Part shown: positions 12,367 through 21,870 of the stretch, piece after piece | Position numbering within the stretch: position 1 is the first letter of the stretch | Layout: the number at the start of each line of letters is the position of its first letter | Origin: Ardenticatena sp. | GTDB taxonomy: Bacteria > Chloroflexota > Anaerolineae > Ardenticatenales > Ardenticatenaceae | NCBI GenBank assembly: GCA_015487975.1 | Contig: WFOS01000022.1 | Location: 51,732 to 115,731 of the forward strand | Length of the DNA: 64,000 bases | Direction: 5' to 3' | The notes under the pieces: generated by a model | What the model saw: the letters and a program-made list of their open reading frames with translations, nothing else | Databases searched by the model: none | Told to the model about the DNA's origin: nothing | Made by a program: the position numbers and the translations under genes

Positions 12367-12394
12367 TTGACAGAAAGTGCTTTTTTCTTATAAT
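12367..12394 (+). promoter_or_regulatory. sigma70-type promoter (TTGACA-N16-TATAAT)
   Basis: Perfect -35 TTGACA (12367-12372) and -10 TATAAT (12389-12394). Confidence 0.8.
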
Positions 12395-12423: not shown

Positions 12424-12477
12424 ATGACACGATCGAGTGAATCAAGCAACCAGCGCCGTGAATACGAAAGGGCGTGA
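12424..12477 (+). CDS. putative 17-aa leader peptide MTRSSESSNQRREYERA
   Basis: ATG preceded by AGGAAAGGA; TGA lies inside the 5' arm of the following terminator stem. Confidence 0.45.
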   Translation: MTRSSESSNQRREYERA

Positions 12478-12505
12478 GCACGATGGGCTCTCACGCCCTT
12501 TTTTC
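12467..12505 (+). terminator. Rho-independent terminator/attenuator between promoter and downstream CDS
   Basis: AAAGGGCGTGAG...CTCACGCCCTTTTTT. Confidence 0.8.
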
Positions 12506-12548
12506 TTTGGTCAAAGCCCGTCAGAACAAAGAAAGGATGCGGCAGCCT

Positions 12549-12914
12549 ATGTTTGGATCGAAAACCCCCTTCCTGTTTCCGCATGAAAGCGTTCCGCACC
12601 TTCGTGATTGCCGTTCCGACAAAGCGTGGGTTGACCTTGTGGACCACATTGCCGCCCTTCCCGAAACACACGAAGAGAGCCTGGCATTTCAATTGATGGT
12701 TATTCATATGGCGGGATGTTTGCGCTGTACGAACTATAAAGCGAATCTCGGATGCACTGTCTGTTCACAACGCGCTGTCCGCAACACCAAAGCCCCTATG
12801 AGTACGATTATGCGCTGGTTCAAACGTGCACAAAACGAGGTGCGTCAGTTTCTTGAAACACTTTCCGAAGAGGCCAAAGCCACCGTGAGCGGTGATGACC
12901 GCCGCGCGGCCTGA
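12549..12914 (+). CDS. small cysteine-motif protein of unknown function
   Basis: MFGSKTPFLFPHESVPHLRDC...GCLRCTNYKANLGCTVCSQR (CxxC-x8-CxxC); flanked by promoter/attenuator and terminator; alternative ATG at 12537. Confidence 0.7.
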   Translation: MFGSKTPFLFPHESVPHLRDCRSDKAWVDLVDHIAALPETHEESLAFQLMVIHMAGCLRCTNYKANLGCTVCSQRAVRNTKAPMSTIMRWFKRAQNEVRQFLETLSEEAKATVSGDDRRAA

Positions 12915-12980: not shown

Positions 12981-13667
12981 CTATTCAGGGCGCATCAAGC
13001 CTTCGCGCCAGGCATAGACAGCCGCTTGGGTACGATCAGAGAGGTTGAGCTTGGCGAGGATATGGCTGACATGCGCTTTCACAGTGCGTGTACTGATGAT
13101 CAGACGTTCGGCAATTTCTTGATTGGTCAGCCCTTCTGCGACCAACCGCAGCACTTCGATTTCTCGTTCGGTCAATGCTGCAAAAGCAGGCGGAACGGCA
13201 GCAGAGGAGGATGGCGGCGACATATGGATCGATTCTTGCCGAAACTCTTGCATGAGTCGCATCGCGATATGTGGATGTAATACGGGCTGCCCTTGTGCAA
13301 CACGCCGAATGGCGTCGGCAAGGTCATCAGGCGCAATGGTTTTCAGGAGATAGGCCAGCGCCCCCGCCTGAACAGCAGGAAAAATCTTCTCGTCTTCTGC
13401 ATACGATGTCAACACGACGATTTGGGTGCGGGGGCTATGCTGTTTGATATGCCGTATGGCAGTAATTCCATCCATTTCAGGCATCACCAAGTCAAGCACG
13501 ACCACATCTGGCGGCGTCTGTTCGACAAAGTGTACGGCTTCCTTGCCAGAAGCCGCTTCGCCGACGACGTGAATGTCATTTTGAGTTTCCAAAAACGCAC
13601 GCACCCCCTGCCGAACGACGGCATGATCGTCTACGATGAGAACCGTAATGGGAGAGAGGTCCGTCAT
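12981..13667 (-). CDS. NarL/FixJ-type (LuxR HTH) response regulator
   Basis: receiver VLIVDDHAVVRQGV...VVLDLVMPEMDG; C-terminal LTEREIEVLRLVAEGLTNQEIAERLIISTRTVKAHVSHILAKLNLSDRTQA. Confidence 0.95.
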   Translation of the reverse strand: MTDLSPITVLIVDDHAVVRQGVRAFLETQNDIHVVGEAASGKEAVHFVEQTPPDVVVLDLVMPEMDGITAIRHIKQHSPRTQIVVLTSYAEDEKIFPAVQAGALAYLLKTIAPDDLADAIRRVAQGQPVLHPHIAMRLMQEFRQESIHMSPPSSSAAVPPAFAALTEREIEVLRLVAEGLTNQEIAERLIISTRTVKAHVSHILAKLNLSDRTQAAVYAWREGLMRPE

Positions 13668-15214
13668 GTTGCTTCCCTCGCTGATTGTGCATATGGGACA
13701 TAGGCCATGATATGGGTCCCGTGTCCGGGGTTGCTTCGAATCGTCAATCGTCCTCCTAATGCCCGCACGCGCTCGTGCATACTGACAAGGCCAACGCCCG
13801 CTGTTGCCTCGTGTACATCGAACCCAACCCCGTCGTCTTCGATCGAGAGGAGCACGCCATCAGGGGTCGATGCAAGGTGCACCTTCACAGAATGCGCCTG
13901 GCTATGGCGTTCGACGTTGTTGAGGGCTTCTTGGAGCAGGCGAAACAAGGCGATCTGATGGGGCAGCGGAAGAGGTGGAACCTCATCGACGTCAACATCG
14001 GTTGTGCAGCCAGTATGTTCTGCCCATTGGGCCACATAGATTTGCACAGCCTTGGGCAAGGGGTGATCACGTAATGGCAATGGGCGCAATTCGTGAATCA
14101 ACGCTGTCAATTCTTCCTGGGCATGGCGCAAGAGCCGTTGGGCTTCATGTAACGCGCCTCGTGCACGCACAGGCTCGGTCTCCAAGAGCGCCTGTACCAC
14201 GCCTAATTGCATGCTTGCGGAAAAGAGATGTTGCTTGACGGCATCATGCAATTCACGCGCCAAGCGATGACGCTCTTCGAGCATCGCCACCATCTCGCGC
14301 GTGTGAACGAGATGTTGCAACTGAGCAGCCATCTCGTTCAAGCGCCGCGCCAGTGCCCCCAGCTCATCCTGGGTATCGTCTTGCACCATGATCGTAAAAC
14401 GCCCAGCTTCCCACTCACGGGTTGCGCGTTCCAGTTTTTCCAACCGCTGCGACAATGTACGCGCTGTCCAATAGCCAAACACGGTTCCCAAAAGTGCCGT
14501 CAGGATGATGATGAGCGCGATGGCACGCATAAATGGAGCAACGAAAAGACGGATACGCTCCAAGATGTGTTGCGGCCAGGCGAGGATGATCACCAATGCG
14601 CCTACCGGGGATCTGCTCGATTCGGATACGACAGGGTAGATCAACGCGATTCCGTCACCGAGCGAGATGGTTTGTGCATCGGCCGTTGGGCTTGTGAGCA
14701 GAAGATCGAGTCTGGCCAAGACGTCATACGAAAAGCAGGCAGCATTCAGAGAAGCGCACGCTTGTGCAGGCTCGAATGCGACGATGTTCCCTTGCTGGTC
14801 GACGAATGCCGCCTCTGCGATGAAAGCGGGGGTCAGATCGACCCGCCACGCTGGTTCGGCAGCGTCGGCAGAGCGAATCGTATTTTGGAACACAAGTGAC
14901 TGCAACCATGTATCCAGTGTTTCCGCATCCGTTGGTTCCGAGGCAAGCGCGGGCGCCAACGATGGGATCGTCTCGCGTATGAACACGTCGAGTAGATTCG
15001 CCACGCGATCGGGTGTGATGGTGAGTGCCAAAAAGAGAACAAGGAGACTCCCCGCCAAGACGATTGCGCTGAGCGTAACGAGCGTATACGACCAAGCGAG
15101 TTTCCAGCGCAGGTGCTGTCGTGGTATCAACGTGCGTATGCGCATTCGTATGCGAGTGCGTCTTTGTCGCGGGCTATGCGCTTTATGTTTTGCATCTGGT
15201 TGCTCGACATTCAT
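13664..15214 (-). CDS. HAMP-containing sensor histidine kinase (HisKA_3 type)
   Basis: two TM segments, HAMP, ELHDAVKQHLF phosphoacceptor motif, C-terminal ATPase domain IEDDGVGFDVHEATAGVGLVSMHERV. Confidence 0.94.
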   Translation of the reverse strand: MNVEQPDAKHKAHSPRQRRTRIRMRIRTLIPRQHLRWKLAWSYTLVTLSAIVLAGSLLVLFLALTITPDRVANLLDVFIRETIPSLAPALASEPTDAETLDTWLQSLVFQNTIRSADAAEPAWRVDLTPAFIAEAAFVDQQGNIVAFEPAQACASLNAACFSYDVLARLDLLLTSPTADAQTISLGDGIALIYPVVSESSRSPVGALVIILAWPQHILERIRLFVAPFMRAIALIIILTALLGTVFGYWTARTLSQRLEKLERATREWEAGRFTIMVQDDTQDELGALARRLNEMAAQLQHLVHTREMVAMLEERHRLARELHDAVKQHLFSASMQLGVVQALLETEPVRARGALHEAQRLLRHAQEELTALIHELRPLPLRDHPLPKAVQIYVAQWAEHTGCTTDVDVDEVPPLPLPHQIALFRLLQEALNNVERHSQAHSVKVHLASTPDGVLLSIEDDGVGFDVHEATAGVGLVSMHERVRALGGRLTIRSNPGHGTHIMAYVPYAQSAREAT

Positions 15215-15235
15215 CGCCAATGAGCAAAGCTGTTT

Positions 15236-16006
15236 TCAATGAATAAGGATATCTTGTCGAGTGAACAAGCGAAGATGAACGAACAAGAGGCTCAAGAACA
15301 ATGCGCCCCATACGCCCACAGCTACGCTTCCTTCACGCAGCAATGTTGTATCGTACACTGCTGCTTCGAGCAAATGTTGTTGCAGGGCAAACAAGAGACG
15401 CAGAGGGGCTATCGGGAGTCGATCACCAAAGGCAGCAATCACATAAAACGGCAATAGAGCCCCCAGAATGGCCAAAAGAAGGTTTTTGGTGCGCAAAAAG
15501 AGCAACTGGCCGACAACGACGAAAAGATAGAGCAGGAAGCCAGTCCAGAGATACGCGGCTATGAAACGCACGAGCATGGCAAACACGGAAAGCTGACGAT
15601 CTTCGATGAGCTCTGGTGTAAAGCCAAACAAAATGGCCGCTACCAAGAGCGTCCCCAGGAGGTACGGGAGCATCAAGAAGACAAGTGTGATCCCGGCTGC
15701 GCCAACTTTGGTCAGCAAAAATCGTTGGCGAGCAATATGCTCGATGAAGGGGCGACGAATGGTTTGCCATTGGAATTCGGCTGCCAGCAGATAGACCCCC
15801 GTTGCCACTGCCAGGAAGGGCAAGAACAACACGCTATACAAGTTGAGACTGCGAAGGGTAAACACGGAGCCGGTGGTGCGTATCAATCCAACTTGTGTTG
15901 CGGCATATGCCACAAAGGCTTGAATCAAAATCAGGCATAATGGGGCCAGGCAGATCCCTATGAAACGGCGATTCCGAACGAAAATACGCCATTCAACGCG
16001 CAACAT
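15236..16006 (-). CDS. ABC-2-like multi-TM permease of exporter
   Basis: MLRVEWRIFVRNRRFIGICLAPLCLI..., about 6 hydrophobic segments; overlaps the ATPase gene. Confidence 0.8.
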   Translation of the reverse strand: MLRVEWRIFVRNRRFIGICLAPLCLILIQAFVAYAATQVGLIRTTGSVFTLRSLNLYSVLFLPFLAVATGVYLLAAEFQWQTIRRPFIEHIARQRFLLTKVGAAGITLVFLMLPYLLGTLLVAAILFGFTPELIEDRQLSVFAMLVRFIAAYLWTGFLLYLFVVVGQLLFLRTKNLLLAILGALLPFYVIAAFGDRLPIAPLRLLFALQQHLLEAAVYDTTLLREGSVAVGVWGALFLSLLFVHLRLFTRQDILIH

Positions 16007-16964
16007 GGCTTTCCTCCATGCGAAGATGTGTCGCCGAATTCGATTTGGGTTCTTCGATGGTTTCTCGGATCCCCAAAATGTGGAAAAACGTTTCTTCCAG
16101 ATGAGTGCGTTCCGATTCTACGCCGATCACACGAACACCATGTTGTACCAGGGAACAGATGATCTCGCCTATCGTCTGGGATGTTGGCACATGGATACGA
16201 AGCGTATCGCCTTGTGCCACTGCGCGAAGCCCACACAGGCGCAACACTGATGCAGCCCGTTTTGCATCGTCTACACGCACATCATGTACGCCCGATGGCG
16301 CCATCAGGACCGACAGCTTTTCTTCGCACAACATACGACCATGGCTGATGATGCCGATGCGATCGGCGATTTGTTCGACCTCGGACAGAATATGGCTGGA
16401 AAGCAAGATGCTCATTCCCTCAGCCCGGAGTGCTCGAATGAGCCTCCGCATATCGCGTACGCCATTGGGGTCGAGCCCGCTGGTTGGTTCGTCGAGAATG
16501 AGCAAACGAGGGCGAAACAGAAGCGCTTGCGCAATGCCCAATCGCTTTTTCATCCCCGTCGAGAAACCACCAACTGGACGATGGGCCGCGTCTGCCAATC
16601 CAACGCGCTCCAAATGTGGCCACACGTCCGCCTGTGTCAGTGGCTGGCCGCGGCGATGGGCTGTGCACAATACATTCTCGATTGCCGAAAGATGGGGATA
16701 AAAAGCAGGCGTATCGACAAACCCTTCTATGCCCTGCAAGCGTTCGGGGTGCCCCGGCGCTACGTCATGCCCATGCCAACGGATTGTCCCCGAATCGGGA
16801 ATCAACAAGCCGAACAGCATTGAAAGCAGGGTCGTTTTTCCAGCGCCATTGGGGCCCAACAGCCCGTAAACTTCGCCTTCGTAGACGCGCATATCGAGGC
16901 CATCGAGGGCGCGTACAGAACCATATTGCTTGACCAAATGTTGCACTTCGAGGAGAGGGGGCAT
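15993..16964 (-). CDS. ABC transporter ATP-binding protein
   Basis: Walker A GPNGAGKTTLL; FSTGMKKRLGIAQAL signature; Walker B LLILDEPTSGLDP. Confidence 0.96.
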   Translation of the reverse strand: MPPLLEVQHLVKQYGSVRALDGLDMRVYEGEVYGLLGPNGAGKTTLLSMLFGLLIPDSGTIRWHGHDVAPGHPERLQGIEGFVDTPAFYPHLSAIENVLCTAHRRGQPLTQADVWPHLERVGLADAAHRPVGGFSTGMKKRLGIAQALLFRPRLLILDEPTSGLDPNGVRDMRRLIRALRAEGMSILLSSHILSEVEQIADRIGIISHGRMLCEEKLSVLMAPSGVHDVRVDDAKRAASVLRLCGLRAVAQGDTLRIHVPTSQTIGEIICSLVQHGVRVIGVESERTHLEETFFHILGIRETIEEPKSNSATHLRMEESHVAR

Positions 16965-16976
16965 GGGTATCGCTCC

Positions 16977-18176
16977 TTAGTGGTGGGGTTGTACATTCCG
17001 AATGCCTAGAAGATTCAAGATCCGATAGCCAATGAAACCGGCAAGAAGAACATCGATAAGCCACAGAATGAGCAAGGACGGCATATCGGGCGCCAACCAT
17101 CGATACAGAGACCGATGAATGGCGTACACGACGGCGGTCGTCAGGAGAGCGATGAAAACAAAATCTATCGAGACGACGATCATTTGATCGAAAGATGGCT
17201 TTCTTCGTTTGGTTCGCCACCAATAGCGGAACGAAGCCCAAGCGTGACTCCGAACGTCGATGTCCTTGAAAAGACCTTGGGAAATGATTTGATATCCATC
17301 CGTCGGTAAAAATGGTGAGAGGTTGAACAAGAAAAGCAGATAGTTGATCGTCGAGAACGAGAGGAAAAAGGCTTTCCATGTTCCTCCGAAATCGGCATAC
17401 CATGCTACCAACCAGGCCATATTGCCGAGCAACAAGTTCATCAGCGGCCCGGCTGCCAAGGTGAACAATCGTCTGCGCAAGGGTAACGTATATAACCCAG
17501 GCAATTGAATACTCAGAAACGGCATGACCAGCAAATACAGGCGCAACGTCAAGCGCCTTGGAAAAACACCATCCCGAGACGATACCCATGCGTGGGCCAA
17601 TTCATGCAAGGGAATGGCGAACAACCAGATACTCAGATATGAAAGCACGAGCGAATGCGCGTTCATGGAATGTCGTGCAGACAACCCAGCTTGGAGCATG
17701 GACTTGGCTTGCGCAACATTCGACAGGACGAGGAACACCACCATACCAAGCGATGCGATAACTGAGATGCCAAAAGTGTATTCGAAAATCCGCGCCCACC
17801 GTTGGAGAAACCTTCCTAATGGCGTAAGCGGAAGAGAAACGAGCGTCCAAGAGAGCATCCGAAAGTGCGAATAAAAAGCGCGCGTTTCCTCTTTGCCATC
17901 CTCTTTGGTGAGCCCAGCCTGACACAGCAATTCGACAAATTGCTCCACGTTGGTTTGGATATCATTTTCTCGCAATCTCGCTTCGATTTCTTGGATAGGC
18001 ACACCTTCACGAAGAAGATCCAGAATCCGACTGACAACGGGATAACGCACTTCATCCACAACCAAATACCGGTCGACTTCGATGCTCCCCACCAGATAAT
18101 ACGTGGTGCCGTTTTTGGTAAACAGCGGCCATGATTGCAAATCTGGTCGAAGCTCGAAACTGCGAACCATCGACAT
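16977..18176 (-). CDS. M50-like membrane metalloprotease with N-terminal PqqD-like domain
   Basis: HELAHAW (HExxH), NLSPFLPTDG third-ligand motif, multiple TMs; N-term YLVVDEVRYPVVSRILDLLREGVPIQEIEARL PqqD-like; GGGAGGG before ATG 18176 (GTG alternative 18182). Confidence 0.8.
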   Translation of the reverse strand: MSMVRSFELRPDLQSWPLFTKNGTTYYLVGSIEVDRYLVVDEVRYPVVSRILDLLREGVPIQEIEARLRENDIQTNVEQFVELLCQAGLTKEDGKEETRAFYSHFRMLSWTLVSLPLTPLGRFLQRWARIFEYTFGISVIASLGMVVFLVLSNVAQAKSMLQAGLSARHSMNAHSLVLSYLSIWLFAIPLHELAHAWVSSRDGVFPRRLTLRLYLLVMPFLSIQLPGLYTLPLRRRLFTLAAGPLMNLLLGNMAWLVAWYADFGGTWKAFFLSFSTINYLLFLFNLSPFLPTDGYQIISQGLFKDIDVRSHAWASFRYWWRTKRRKPSFDQMIVVSIDFVFIALLTTAVVYAIHRSLYRWLAPDMPSLLILWLIDVLLAGFIGYRILNLLGIRNVQPHH

Positions 18177-19615
18177 CAGCACCCTCCCATGATGGATTGC
18201 GATTCCAGCCGCAGTTGTCGATAGTGTATGACAAAACGATGCCAGTCACGTGGCGTTTGGCGAATGCGGGCGAGTTCTGCCATCATCGTTTCCAAGACGG
18301 CTTGGATGATCCAGCAATTGATCGTTCGGCCGCCGAGATGGCCGTTTTCGATGGAGTGCGCTCCAAGACAACTTGTGCATACGTGCCGCGCCCAACATTT
18401 TTGGCAGATACGCCGGCAATGTTTGGCATTTTGTTCGTAAAAGGCATGCCCCTTTCGACGATACGCCTCATTGTCAAGTGAATGGAGTGCCGATTGCTGA
18501 ATGAAATTCCTTTTTTCGACGAACATGAAGCAAGGATAGAGATTACCGGCGATGTCGATAGCAAGATCATGGACACCAGCAGCACAGACCAACGGTTGTG
18601 GAATTTTGAGGAGCAAAGTTCGCAAAAGCCCCGTCACGAAGGAAAACAACTTGGGTTCACCAGCGACAAGCGATTGCAAAGCACGCACGGTTGCCGTTTT
18701 GTAGTCTTCTACGAGGCGTTTGCGTTCATCACGTCGCCATCGTTGGGGATCTTGGGCACTATAGGAAGCCGGCACGAGATGAGAATGGTAGATTCCATTT
18801 TCGGCCAAAAACTCGACGATGTCCCATACACGATACCCCTGTCGCATACTGTCCGGACTGTACGTCACTTCTACGGAAAAAGGAATTCCTTCTTCTCGAA
18901 GGTGTCGTAGTGTCTGCGAAACGTGCTTGAAACTGCCCTCTCCCTTCTTGGTAATCCGCGTTCGGTCATGAATCTCCGGGGGACCATCGATGCTTACATT
19001 CAAAAAAATGGCATAGCGTTTCACGACATCGGCAACACGTGCATTCCACACCGTCCCATTCGTCGTGGCACCAAAACGAGGACACTGTGCGATTTGGCCT
19101 TTTTCAGCGAGATTCGTGAAGAATTGGCAGATCTCTTCGATGAGATCGACATTCAAAAAAGGTTCCCCGCCGAAGAATTGCACGCTTGCCACACCTTTGT
19201 AATAGTCGAGGATGTTTTGGATGGCCGTAGTTGCTATTTGCCTGCGCAAGTTTGCGATAGGGCCTCCGTAAGCCCCCCCGGATGCATAGCAGTAGGTACA
19301 TTGCAAATTGCATGCCGTCGTCGTCAAAATCGTGAGTCGGTTCAAAATGTGTGTGCCTTGGCTCGCTTTCTCGAAACGCATCCGGACCCTTTCGCGTTCC
19401 TGTGCGATTTTTCGTTTCATCGCATGCCAATCACGAGATGTATCGTCCGTCAGTGCCGAAACATCCTGCCCCCGTTTTCGCGCTCGAATCCATGCGAACA
19501 GCTCATCGCTACTCTGAAAGAACACCATGCTCTCGGGGTCGAAGACGAACAGGCGTCCATCATCCGAACGAAAAGTGTGCACATCCTTCGATACATCATG
19601 TCCACACATTTGCAT
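18176..19615 (-). CDS. radical SAM/SPASM peptide-modifying enzyme
   Basis: TTTACNLQCTYCYASGG (CxxxCxxC), FFGGEPFLN, SPASM Cys set CAAGVHDLAIDIAGNLYPC...CRRICQKCWARHVCTSC; alternative start 19609. Confidence 0.92.
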   Translation of the reverse strand: MQMCGHDVSKDVHTFRSDDGRLFVFDPESMVFFQSSDELFAWIRARKRGQDVSALTDDTSRDWHAMKRKIAQERERVRMRFEKASQGTHILNRLTILTTTACNLQCTYCYASGGAYGGPIANLRRQIATTAIQNILDYYKGVASVQFFGGEPFLNVDLIEEICQFFTNLAEKGQIAQCPRFGATTNGTVWNARVADVVKRYAIFLNVSIDGPPEIHDRTRITKKGEGSFKHVSQTLRHLREEGIPFSVEVTYSPDSMRQGYRVWDIVEFLAENGIYHSHLVPASYSAQDPQRWRRDERKRLVEDYKTATVRALQSLVAGEPKLFSFVTGLLRTLLLKIPQPLVCAAGVHDLAIDIAGNLYPCFMFVEKRNFIQQSALHSLDNEAYRRKGHAFYEQNAKHCRRICQKCWARHVCTSCLGAHSIENGHLGGRTINCWIIQAVLETMMAELARIRQTPRDWHRFVIHYRQLRLESQSIMGGC

Positions 19616-19624
19616 CCCTCCTTG

Positions 19625-20872
19625 TCAGCCCAATGGCTCTACTCGAAAGACCACGATGCCTTTGGGGGTCGTCAACGCCAACGAATAATCGAGCCAGAAT
19701 GGGGGGTAATTGGGATTCGTATTGGCTTTCTCGATCAATGTCCCGTCACCCTCGGCAATCGTTGCCTGGGCGGCCAACGAGAGGGTCGTGGGCGGGGTCA
19801 ATGTATAGAGGAAAATCGAATCCAAACTTCGCACCGAGAGCCAATATGTCTGCTCTTGTCCTTTGTCGCGCTTTGGTTGAATGGAAATCCCGCCCAACAG
19901 CACATTCTTTGGAATAGGCAATGGAATGCCTAAGACACGTACCTTGCCCCCGGGCAAAGGCGTGTTGTTGAATGTGCCATCAGGAGCAACGAGATAGATC
20001 CCCTTGACATAGTTCGCGAACGCAATTCCCTCAGCATCCCTTGGCGATGGAAACGCCACCGCTCCGTAATTGATGTCGCTATTTTCGATGTGCCAACGTC
20101 GCTTGCCACGTGCGTCTACGAAATACACATGGCTGTGAGAAAGGACGACGACACCATCCTCACCAGCGCGGAAGCGCACGGCTTTGACTTCGGCAATGAA
20201 TTTTGCACTCTTGAACCGCCATAGCTCTTGAAGTTGCTCTGTCGTGCTGTCGAAGGCCACAAGCAACCGCCCTGATGCCACATAGAGGCGTGAATCGTCG
20301 GGTGTGGTTTCGAGATACACTGCCTCTGGCTGTGCATGCTCTCCAATACCGCGTGCCAATGTGTCCATACGCTCTCCGGTATTCGGATCGACACGCCATA
20401 CCGTGACACCATCGCTCACGACCAATCCGAGCGTATCGACCAACAATGCGTCGAGTGCGGGCTGCTCGAAGACCTGCTCCCAGAGGCTTTCGCCTGTTTT
20501 CCCGTTCAAGCGGATAAGGCGAGGGGGCTTGGTGTTGTCATTCGTGACCACCACGATGTCTCCCTCAGGAAGGACCAACGCGCGAGTCGGTGTTCCTTCG
20601 AGGAGCACTTGCCAGCGCGTTTCGCGTTTCGACTTGTCGAACAAGGTCAAGCGTCGTGTTGGGGTCTGTTGAACGCGTGCCCCCATGAACAAAATCGCCT
20701 CTTCGGTTTCTTGAAGGATTTGCCCACCGGGTGGCAGCATCACATCGAGCGTCTCTTCGATTTCCAATGTGCGAATGTTGGTTACACTTGGCGCATCCTT
20801 GCGGGCGCATGCCGACAAAAAAGTGAGCAAGAACATGCCAACGAGCGGGAAAACCCATTTGAACGAATCCAT
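19625..20872 (-). CDS. lipoprotein with predicted PQQ-like beta-propeller
   Basis: MDSFKWVFPLVGMFLLTFLSACARK lipobox; repeated LNGKTGESLWEQVF / DARGKRRWHIE blade-like motifs; GGAGGTGTGAAATG start. Confidence 0.75.
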   Translation of the reverse strand: MDSFKWVFPLVGMFLLTFLSACARKDAPSVTNIRTLEIEETLDVMLPPGGQILQETEEAILFMGARVQQTPTRRLTLFDKSKRETRWQVLLEGTPTRALVLPEGDIVVVTNDNTKPPRLIRLNGKTGESLWEQVFEQPALDALLVDTLGLVVSDGVTVWRVDPNTGERMDTLARGIGEHAQPEAVYLETTPDDSRLYVASGRLLVAFDSTTEQLQELWRFKSAKFIAEVKAVRFRAGEDGVVVLSHSHVYFVDARGKRRWHIENSDINYGAVAFPSPRDAEGIAFANYVKGIYLVAPDGTFNNTPLPGGKVRVLGIPLPIPKNVLLGGISIQPKRDKGQEQTYWLSVRSLDSIFLYTLTPPTTLSLAAQATIAEGDGTLIEKANTNPNYPPFWLDYSLALTTPKGIVVFRVEPLG

Positions 20873-20905
20873 TTCACACCTCCTATCCACTTGGATGAGG
20901 GGCGA

Positions 20906-20943
20906 GAGCCGGTCGAAGGATCCGACCTTCCAATGACCGGCTC
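20906..20943 (-). promoter_or_regulatory. intra-operon stem-loop between precursor peptide and downstream genes
   Basis: minus strand GAGCCGGTC-attg-GAAGG-tcggat-CCTTC-GACCGGCTC, no T-tract. Confidence 0.6.
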
Positions 20944-20977
20944 CCATCTCCCGTCAAGCTGTCAGATGGTCAGGTGC

Positions 20978-21103
20978 TTACGCCGCCACGCAGATGAGCC
21001 CGCAAGCACCACCGGCACATACGAGACCGCCCCAGTCAGGGAACGCCGACTGCAATGCCGTTTCTTCGATGATTTCCAAGTCCGTCAAATCGATGAATGT
21101 CAT
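20978..21103 (-). CDS. putative RiPP precursor peptide (41 aa)
   Basis: MTFIDLTDLEIIEETALQSAFPDWGGLVCAGGACGLICVAA; strong RBS GGAGGGAG 4 nt before ATG; first gene of the radical SAM/M50/ABC operon. Confidence 0.8.
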   Translation of the reverse strand: MTFIDLTDLEIIEETALQSAFPDWGGLVCAGGACGLICVAA

Positions 21104-21189
21104 CTCTCCCTCCTTGTTGTTGGTTTGGGGTTGGTTGAAGGTGCACGACCAATATGCGGGGAACGAAGATGTCAGTGGTGATGCCCCAA

Positions 21190-21210
21190 GGAGTTTGCTC
21201 GAGCAACTCC
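21190..21210. promoter_or_regulatory. near-perfect palindrome upstream of precursor gene
   Basis: GGAGTTTGCTCGAGCAACTCC, 10-bp inverted repeat with one bulged T. Confidence 0.35.
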
Positions 21211-21301
21211 ATCGACACGATAGCCGTTTGCCGAGCGAGATACAATGTCCCTACGACCAATTTGTATTGTCCTCGGGGACGATTTTCGTTTCACCATGCA
21301 A

Positions 21302-21335
21302 CAAAAAATGCGAGCATGACTGCCTTCATGCTCGC
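21302..21335 (-). terminator. Rho-independent terminator after the 21358..21870 gene
   Basis: minus strand GCGAGCATGA-aggcag-TCATGCTCGC-ATTTTTTG. Confidence 0.75.
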
Positions 21336-21357
21336 GTTTGCTCTGCGAAGCGTCTTC

Positions 21358-21870
21358 TCACGTCTCCCCAGACGTCTTGCGCCACACTTCCACCAATGCC
21401 CCTGCGAGCTCATCAGCCATCGTCGCTATCTCTGCGTGCCCCAACCAAAAGGTGCCCACTGGCTCCATATCGAACGCATCGCTCACCACTTCGACGAACG
21501 CTCGCCCTTCGGGCAGACGGGCTTCCCAAGCTGCCATTTCGCCTGGCAACGGCCAGTCGGTGCTGACATCGAACATCACACGCACCTGCTCGACAATCGC
21601 CAAAGGCATCCCCGCCGACAAAAGCCGTTCTCTCACCGCTGCCTCTAATGTCTCGCCCCATCGGGTTTGGAGATGTTGGGCGTACAGCTGCTGCAAAACT
21701 GGCGCTTCGACTTTGAGCCACGCTTCCAATGTTTCTTCATCCAACCGTTGCCAGCGAGCCTCTATATCCCCCCAGCGAAAAACGACGGTATCCCCCTGCT
21801 CCACAAGTGCCCAGGGCGGTACATCCTCGTCACATCCCGTGATCAAGCGCAGTAGCGCATCGACCCCCAT
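21358..21870 (-). CDS. conserved hypothetical protein
   Basis: 170-aa ORF MGVDALLRLITGCDEDVPPWALVEQG...; GAGGAGG upstream of ATG 21870; bounded by terminators. Confidence 0.65.
   Translation of the reverse strand: MGVDALLRLITGCDEDVPPWALVEQGDTVVFRWGDIEARWQRLDEETLEAWLKVEAPVLQQLYAQHLQTRWGETLEAAVRERLLSAGMPLAIVEQVRVMFDVSTDWPLPGEMAAWEARLPEGRAFVEVVSDAFDMEPVGTFWLGHAEIATMADELAGALVEVWRKTSGET

Follow-up and report, generated by a model that had tools for sequence, protein, structure and literature searches.

Several described systems for peptide maturation resemble parts of the locus reported here. In streptosactin (GggA/GggB), Cys residues are joined to the alpha-carbon of Gly or Ser in four-residue rings with the Cys first, in C-x-x-G/S motifs (PMC8172795). 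In the NxxC ranthipeptides of Streptococcus (NxxcA/NxxcB) a radical SAM/SPASM enzyme links Cys to a residue upstream at i-3, again within a four-residue ring (PMC8326336, PMC13361665), the bond in NxxcA running from Cys23 to the beta-carbon of Asn20 (PMC8326336). Known sactipeptides other than ruminococcin C and streptosactin have donor Cys in their N-terminal part and acceptors in their C-terminal part (PMC8326336), and the acceptors of freyrasin (PapA/PapB) and the SCIFF peptides lie in CX3D/E motifs or are Thr. The epipeptide locus of Bacillus (yydFGHIJ/epeXEPAB) combines a precursor, a radical SAM enzyme, an M50 protein, an ABC ATPase and permease, and a LiaS-type link (PMC7026026); its product YydF is epimerised only, and epipeptides are matured by an M50 protease (PMC10885120). 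Daptide gene clusters encode an RRE fused to an intramembrane site-2 protease (MpaP), and such fusions remove leaders (PMC10036551); an aminotransferase, a dehydrogenase, a methyltransferase and an invariant C-terminal Thr are further daptide features.

The locus described here lies within a 64,000-nucleotide stretch of DNA from Ardenticatena sp. (contig WFOS01000022.1), referred to as the window. It resembles the NxxC ranthipeptides in having a radical SAM/SPASM enzyme and, by prediction, four-residue rings in which Cys reaches upstream to i-3, but Gly, which has no beta-carbon, stands in the place of the Asn in all three motifs, and there are several motifs per peptide. With streptosactin it would share four-residue rings and an alpha-carbon acceptor, although the conserved Gly in the window family is N-terminal to the Cys. 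The PapA/PapB and SCIFF/CteB ranthipeptide systems provide the closest curated enzyme families and the closest solved structure, yet the window core contains none of their acceptors and the enzyme scores below the cut-offs. The epipeptide gene set is also similar, but here the core is rich in Cys and carries GxxC motifs, the enzyme is of the SPASM type, and the operon includes a lipoprotein and its own two-component system. With the daptides the locus shares an RRE fused to a site-2 protease, and the daptide leader motif ELExMEAP is comparable to the LxxLEExxAP of the window family (PMC10036551), whereas the window cassette has no aminotransferase, dehydrogenase or methyltransferase gene and its peptide no C-terminal Thr. 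Tentatively, the predicted topology may mirror that of streptosactin and correspond to NxxC with the link at the alpha-carbon. The best overall explanation, which we regard as reasonably likely, is a radical-SAM RiPP in which thioether rings would join Gly(i-3) to Cys, with leader removal by the M50 protein and export or protection by the ABC transporter.

The precursor gene and its operon

A preliminary description of the window had proposed that an unlisted ORF encodes a 41-residue precursor peptide. This ORF was confirmed, on the minus strand (20978..21103; 41 codons, with the ATG at 21103 and the stop ending at 20978), and its translation, MTFIDLTDLEIIEETALQSAFPDWGGLVCAGGACGLICVAA, is identical to that originally quoted. 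The strong ribosome-binding site reported with it was likewise found, as a Shine-Dalgarno sequence (AAGGAGGGAG / GGAGGGAG; 21106..21113, minus) 2 nt 5' of the ATG, and purine-rich sites precede the homologous precursors at four other loci (L008, L020, L021 and L022). With the border between leader and core placed by inference, the leader MTFIDLTDLEIIEETALQSAFPDWG would span 21103..21029 and the core GLVCAGGACGLICVAA 21028..20981 (both minus). The core is devoid of Asp, Glu, Asn, Gln, Ser and Thr and ends in VAA; Cys29, Cys34 and Cys38 have the C-x4-C-x3-C spacing noted previously, and all three sit in G-x-x-C motifs (G26LVC29, G31GAC34 and G35LIC38). A curated-model search gave no Pfam or NCBIfam match to the precursor, and no paralogue stood above noise in the same genome.

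Homologues at matching positions together with divergence at silent sites identify the ORF as a real gene and not a chance frame. Between the window precursor (G000) and its homologue in genome G143, 37 of 123 nucleotides differ, 24 of the 37 at third codon positions (pS 0.82, pN 0.13), and residues 27–38 of the core show nine synonymous changes and no nonsynonymous ones. Judged from these alignments, the ORF is under strong purifying selection, and its reading as a precursor peptide holds up well. The preliminary description had named a lack of protein-level conservation in homologous clusters as a refutation; instead, these clusters keep the protein, both leader and core, while their silent sites have drifted apart. 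Two antisense ORFs on the plus strand (20336..21181 and 20994..21566) were considered and rejected, as conservation fits the precursor frame best (33/41 residues identical, against 26/40 in the best other frame).

The precursor is the first gene of a tightly packed operon of eight genes on the minus strand. It is followed by genes for a 415-residue PQQ_2/BamB-like beta-propeller lipoprotein (19625..20872, minus), assigned from curated-model matches and carrying the lipobox LSAC; a radical SAM/SPASM peptide maturase (18176..19615, minus) with an RRE-like N-terminal domain (residues about 11–85); and an intramembrane M50 protein of the site-2 protease type (16977..18182, minus), the presumed leader peptidase, with HExxH at residues 193–197 and an N-terminal PqqD-like RRE fold at 15–94. 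The remaining genes encode an ABC transporter ATPase (15993..16964, minus), for which the closest curated model is the lantibiotic protection subfamily (221 bits, below the cut-off), a weakly ABC2_membrane_4-like ABC permease (15236..16006, minus), a sensor histidine kinase of the LiaS/NarX type with HAMP and HisKA_3 domains (13664..15220, minus), and a NarL/LuxR-type response regulator (12981..13667, minus). The radical SAM gene had been described as adjacent to the precursor; it is in the same operon but is not the immediate neighbour, since the lipoprotein gene intervenes. An orthologue of the lipoprotein, 44% identical, occupies the same position at L008, and this conservation in the cluster makes it a candidate immunity or peptide-binding factor.

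The window is collinear with the same-genus genome G001 up to position 12910 and again from about 21358 onwards, where an ORF upstream of carbonic anhydrase is alignable to G001 at the protein level. All eight cassette genes are missing from G001, which instead has one WD40-like lipoprotein (L052:5201-6178). Relative to G001 the cassette is a discrete insertion, which marks the limits of the system and shows that the two-component system belongs to it. Because the lipoprotein at the empty site is unrelated, genes may be exchanged at this position as at a hot spot. The GC content of the cassette (0.534) is a little lower than that of the flanks (0.56 and 0.59). A terminator-like hairpin of 10 pairs followed by ATTTTTTG (21310..21335, minus) lies 5' of the operon, between it and the 21358 ORF; it is a consensus match only, the total count of such sites being not clearly above that in shuffled sequences. 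A promoter scan found no consensus sigma-70 promoter 5' of the operon. A perfect sigma-70 consensus (TTGACA-16-TATAAT, 12/12) is present elsewhere, at 12367-12394 on the plus strand, 5' of a conserved ORF (12474..12914).

Relatives of the precursor and the GxxC pattern

Precursor homologues are located immediately 5' of the lipoprotein gene in other genomes of the class Anaerolineae, namely G143 (80% identical), G250, G268 and G004. Gene order in G250 and in G143 essentially matches the window through the ABC permease. The G268 homologue, in which Tyr replaces the second Cys, is on a short contig that extends into the lipoprotein gene. In G004, which belongs to the same family, three precursor paralogues stand in tandem (L021:1175-1669, G004:C169), one of them with seven consecutive GxxC motifs (GGAACPGAACGGACGGAGCGGLCAGLLCGGVC), and are followed by a diverged lipoprotein gene that is truncated where the contig ends; no close radical SAM enzyme was found in the G004 assembly, which can be attributed to the contig ending within the lipoprotein gene. 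In another class of the phylum, G441 encodes a related radical SAM enzyme and M50 protein together with a short GxxC precursor (L022:4723-12274). A radical SAM enzyme 31% identical to that of the window is encoded on the Actinomyces oris plasmid NZ_CP116225.1, where an unannotated short ORF with a GTG start (L056:936-1040; MTLVERDDEIDLDELVQLEEDVSPATGGGCGAFC) carries two GxxC motifs behind the leader of the family, and the locus also holds a YydH-like M50 protein and ABC genes.

To quantify the pattern we used 11 precursors found through either the enzyme or the leader (G000, G143, G250, G268, three of G004, G150, two of G152, and G441). In this small sample, drawn partly from fragmented MAGs, Gly is at position -3 of 38 of the 42 Cys residues; the four exceptions are all in the distant member G150, where two of six Cys fit, and outside it the count is 36/36. 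When the non-Cys core residues were shuffled, none of 20,000 trials reached the observed count, whether all precursors or one set per lineage were used, and the excess survives taking the maximum over ten offsets, although this is not a strict probability and it overstates independence because precursors within a lineage are related. No other offset near a ring size approaches this count: Gly is found at +1 in 21/39, at +2 in 18/38, at +3 in 9/34, which is about background, and at +6 in 19/27, the last reflecting the spacing of neighbouring GxxC motifs. The Actinomyces oris ORF, which is not among the 11, is an independent instance of the pattern. When 346 kb of fetched loci were searched for short ORFs with every Cys in a GxxC motif, the family and one chance frame were returned. 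E13, G26 and C29 do not vary in an alignment of ten precursors, and the family leader follows the pattern I-D-L-x-D/E-L-x-x-x-E-E, but the C-terminal residues are variable (VAA, IGL, IVV, CS and CGK). The term "GXXC" in combination with radical SAM was not found in the literature searched.

Maturation enzymes and proposed chemistry

As in radical SAM RiPPs generally, a precursor with a conserved leader shares its operon with a radical SAM/SPASM enzyme, in which neither the CX3CX2C motif nor any of the seven SPASM cysteines varies among seven homologues. The best-matching curated families are PapB (ranthipeptide), nif11, QhpD, SCIFF and CcpM, with GggB further down (105 bits), and the score against the PapB model NF047865 is 191.4 bits, below the cut-off of 340. 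Because the enzyme scores well under the curated cut-offs, its chemistry is not transferable by family. The closest solved structure, both by profile (4e-46) and by fold, is the thioether former CteB, and the relatives of the enzyme are mostly thioether formers. The AlphaFold model of the enzyme (mean pLDDT 75.9, from an alignment of just 7) shows with confidence an N-terminal βββ-α domain of the RRE type (11–85), and the M50 model has a βββ-ααα domain (15–94) of the same type on a site-2-protease body, these types being assigned by eye from predicted secondary structure; leader-recognition (RRE) domains are thereby predicted on both proteins. The fold search with the M50 protein gave weak matches only, to the site-2 proteases SpoIVFB and mjS2P, and the best curated model is the daptide MpaP (63.6 bits). 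Against the YydH/LiaK model NF058609 it scores 38.7 bits, below the cut-off of 225, and with a precursor that matches no NCBIfam model the locus falls outside the epipeptides as these models define them.

We propose that the radical SAM enzyme would bond the sulfur of every Cys to the alpha-carbon of the Gly at i-3. The product would contain three four-residue thioether rings in succession (G26-C29, G31-C34 and G35-C38), with an expected mass change of -6 Da and presumably no free Cys. The RRE-fused M50 intramembrane protease would cut the leader off near the conserved Gly-Gly, the ABC transporter would export the product, protect the producer, or both, and the co-inserted histidine kinase and response regulator would sense the product or envelope stress and regulate the operon. 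Leader cleavage by the M50 protease is very probable, and the presence of thioether cross-links, judged from sequence comparison, only slightly less so; that the acceptor is the Gly(i-3) alpha-carbon has about an even chance. The GxxC Gly is suggested as the partner because it is an invariant residue at a fixed distance from every Cys, and the link is predicted at the alpha-carbon because Gly has only that carbon, but this Gly could be structural instead.

The preliminary description had named sactionine or ranthionine links as alternatives. The known ranthionine types, PapB-type CX3D/E and NxxC-type Cys-Asn, are excluded because the window core lacks Asp, Glu and Asn, whereas the GxxC pattern suggests a sactionine to the Gly alpha-carbon. 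The conserved Gly(-3), the putative partner, is upstream of the Cys; in classical sactipeptides donors are N-terminal to acceptors, and given that layout (PMC8326336) the predicted topology would be unusual. The combination of Cys with the alpha-carbon of an upstream Gly(i-3), for which streptosactin and NxxcA each offer a precedent for one half, was not found in the literature searched, which excluded most subscription papers. The operon and the GxxC pattern point to secreted, sulfur-stapled peptides of an uncharacterised family. It is possible, if somewhat short of probable, that this is a new RiPP family of Chloroflexota and Actinomycetota built on ladders of adjacent four-residue Cys-to-Gly(i-3) alpha-carbon rings, with three predicted rings in the window peptide and up to seven in a G004 precursor.

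An alternative is that the thioethers are formed to other acceptors (Ala, Leu, Ile, Val, or a Gly downstream of the Cys) and that the GxxC Gly provides flexibility only. Known sactipeptides use many types of acceptor residue, mostly C-terminal to the Cys (PMC8326336, PMC8172795), the window has a streptosactin-like Cys29-x-x-Gly32, and Gly is frequent at +1 (21/39) and +2 (18/38); however, no downstream position is invariant, and the contrast between Gly at +3 (9/34) and at -3 (38/42) leaves us to regard this alternative as unlikely. A little less likely again is an absence of thioethers, with the radical SAM enzyme epimerising the peptide, as in epipeptides, or making C-C links, and the Cys forming disulfides or binding metal. 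Epimerisation needs neither Cys nor Gly(-3), yet these are the most conserved features of the core, and they form regular GxxC ladders with up to seven Cys in G004; moreover, the top curated matches of the enzyme are thioether formers and not epimerases. This has to be set against an operon layout and LiaS-like kinase that resemble yydFGHIJ, where epimerisation is the sole modification of a product that induces LiaRS (PMC7026026), and against the weak similarity of the M50 protein to YydH/LiaK (38.7 bits). Finally, pearlin pathways use the M50 proteases TglG and TmoG to release residues from the C-terminus (PMC10885120), and the peptide could in principle be a carrier from which a C-terminal small molecule is released; variable C-terminal residues, an internal repeated motif as the conserved feature, and a cassette without a ligase gene make this very improbable.

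If the Gly(i-3) linkage is correct, it would represent a radical-SAM thioether topology with the simplest acceptor, in a four-residue unit that can be repeated and would be of use in peptide stapling. The GxxC motif with the I-D-L-x-D/E-L-x-x-x-E-E leader offers a rule for recognising unannotated precursors, as on the Actinomyces oris plasmid.

Product function and further loci

For the mature peptide we favour, at roughly even confidence, an envelope-active bacteriocin-like antimicrobial with self-protection and feedback sensing. The operon kinase is LiaS-like and the arrangement parallels the yyd/epe locus, the product of which permeabilises membranes and induces LiaRS (PMC7026026). The main rival, which we consider rather unlikely, is that the modified peptide is a quorum-sensing signal with the downstream two-component system as its receptor. 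Kinase and regulator are indeed within the inserted cassette, and response regulators flank the L008 and L020 clusters, at L020 also with a kinase, but the ABC ATPase has its best match among transporters for lantibiotic protection, which fits self-immunity, and the three paralogous G004 precursors fit an arsenal better than one signal.

Chloroflexota RiPPs appear little explored in the literature found. Searching genome contigs with the single radical SAM protein gave no relatives, and a two-sequence profile gave two records, one being the G143 contig. In a Hydrogenedentota genome (L009) a radical SAM enzyme 65% identical to that of the window lies at the edge of a contig, and the genome yielded no precursor, so that the assignment to this genome may be a binning artefact. 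Viral contigs searched with the precursor profile gave no match. Radical SAM matches on Methylocystis plasmids were rejected, as they sit between transposition genes with no GxxC ORF.

Several other loci vary in composition. The related radical SAM gene of G395 (L044:6772-7653) is apparently truncated, with a SPASM-like remainder in another frame, and no intact precursor was seen at that locus. G150 has two tandem precursors (L042:311-589, 607-750), one interrupted by Ns, beside a related radical SAM enzyme and M50 protein, and its Cys-rich cores mostly depart from GxxC. In G152 (L043:6865-7686) two tandem longer precursors with repeated CGLDC adjoin a PapB-like radical SAM gene, and the conserved C-terminal region after their Cys block is possibly a follower-peptide version. 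A polyprenyl-synthetase-like gene comes after the RiPP cluster in G250 (L020:4220-7610) and G143 (L008:10343-11269), with response regulators on both sides at these loci and a GAF-containing histidine kinase in G250, a neighbourhood whose gene content is reminiscent of ComQ/ComP-type signalling. The G441 locus is flanked by a squalene-hopene-cyclase-like protein, identified by eye, and by a 794-residue protein with no Pfam match.
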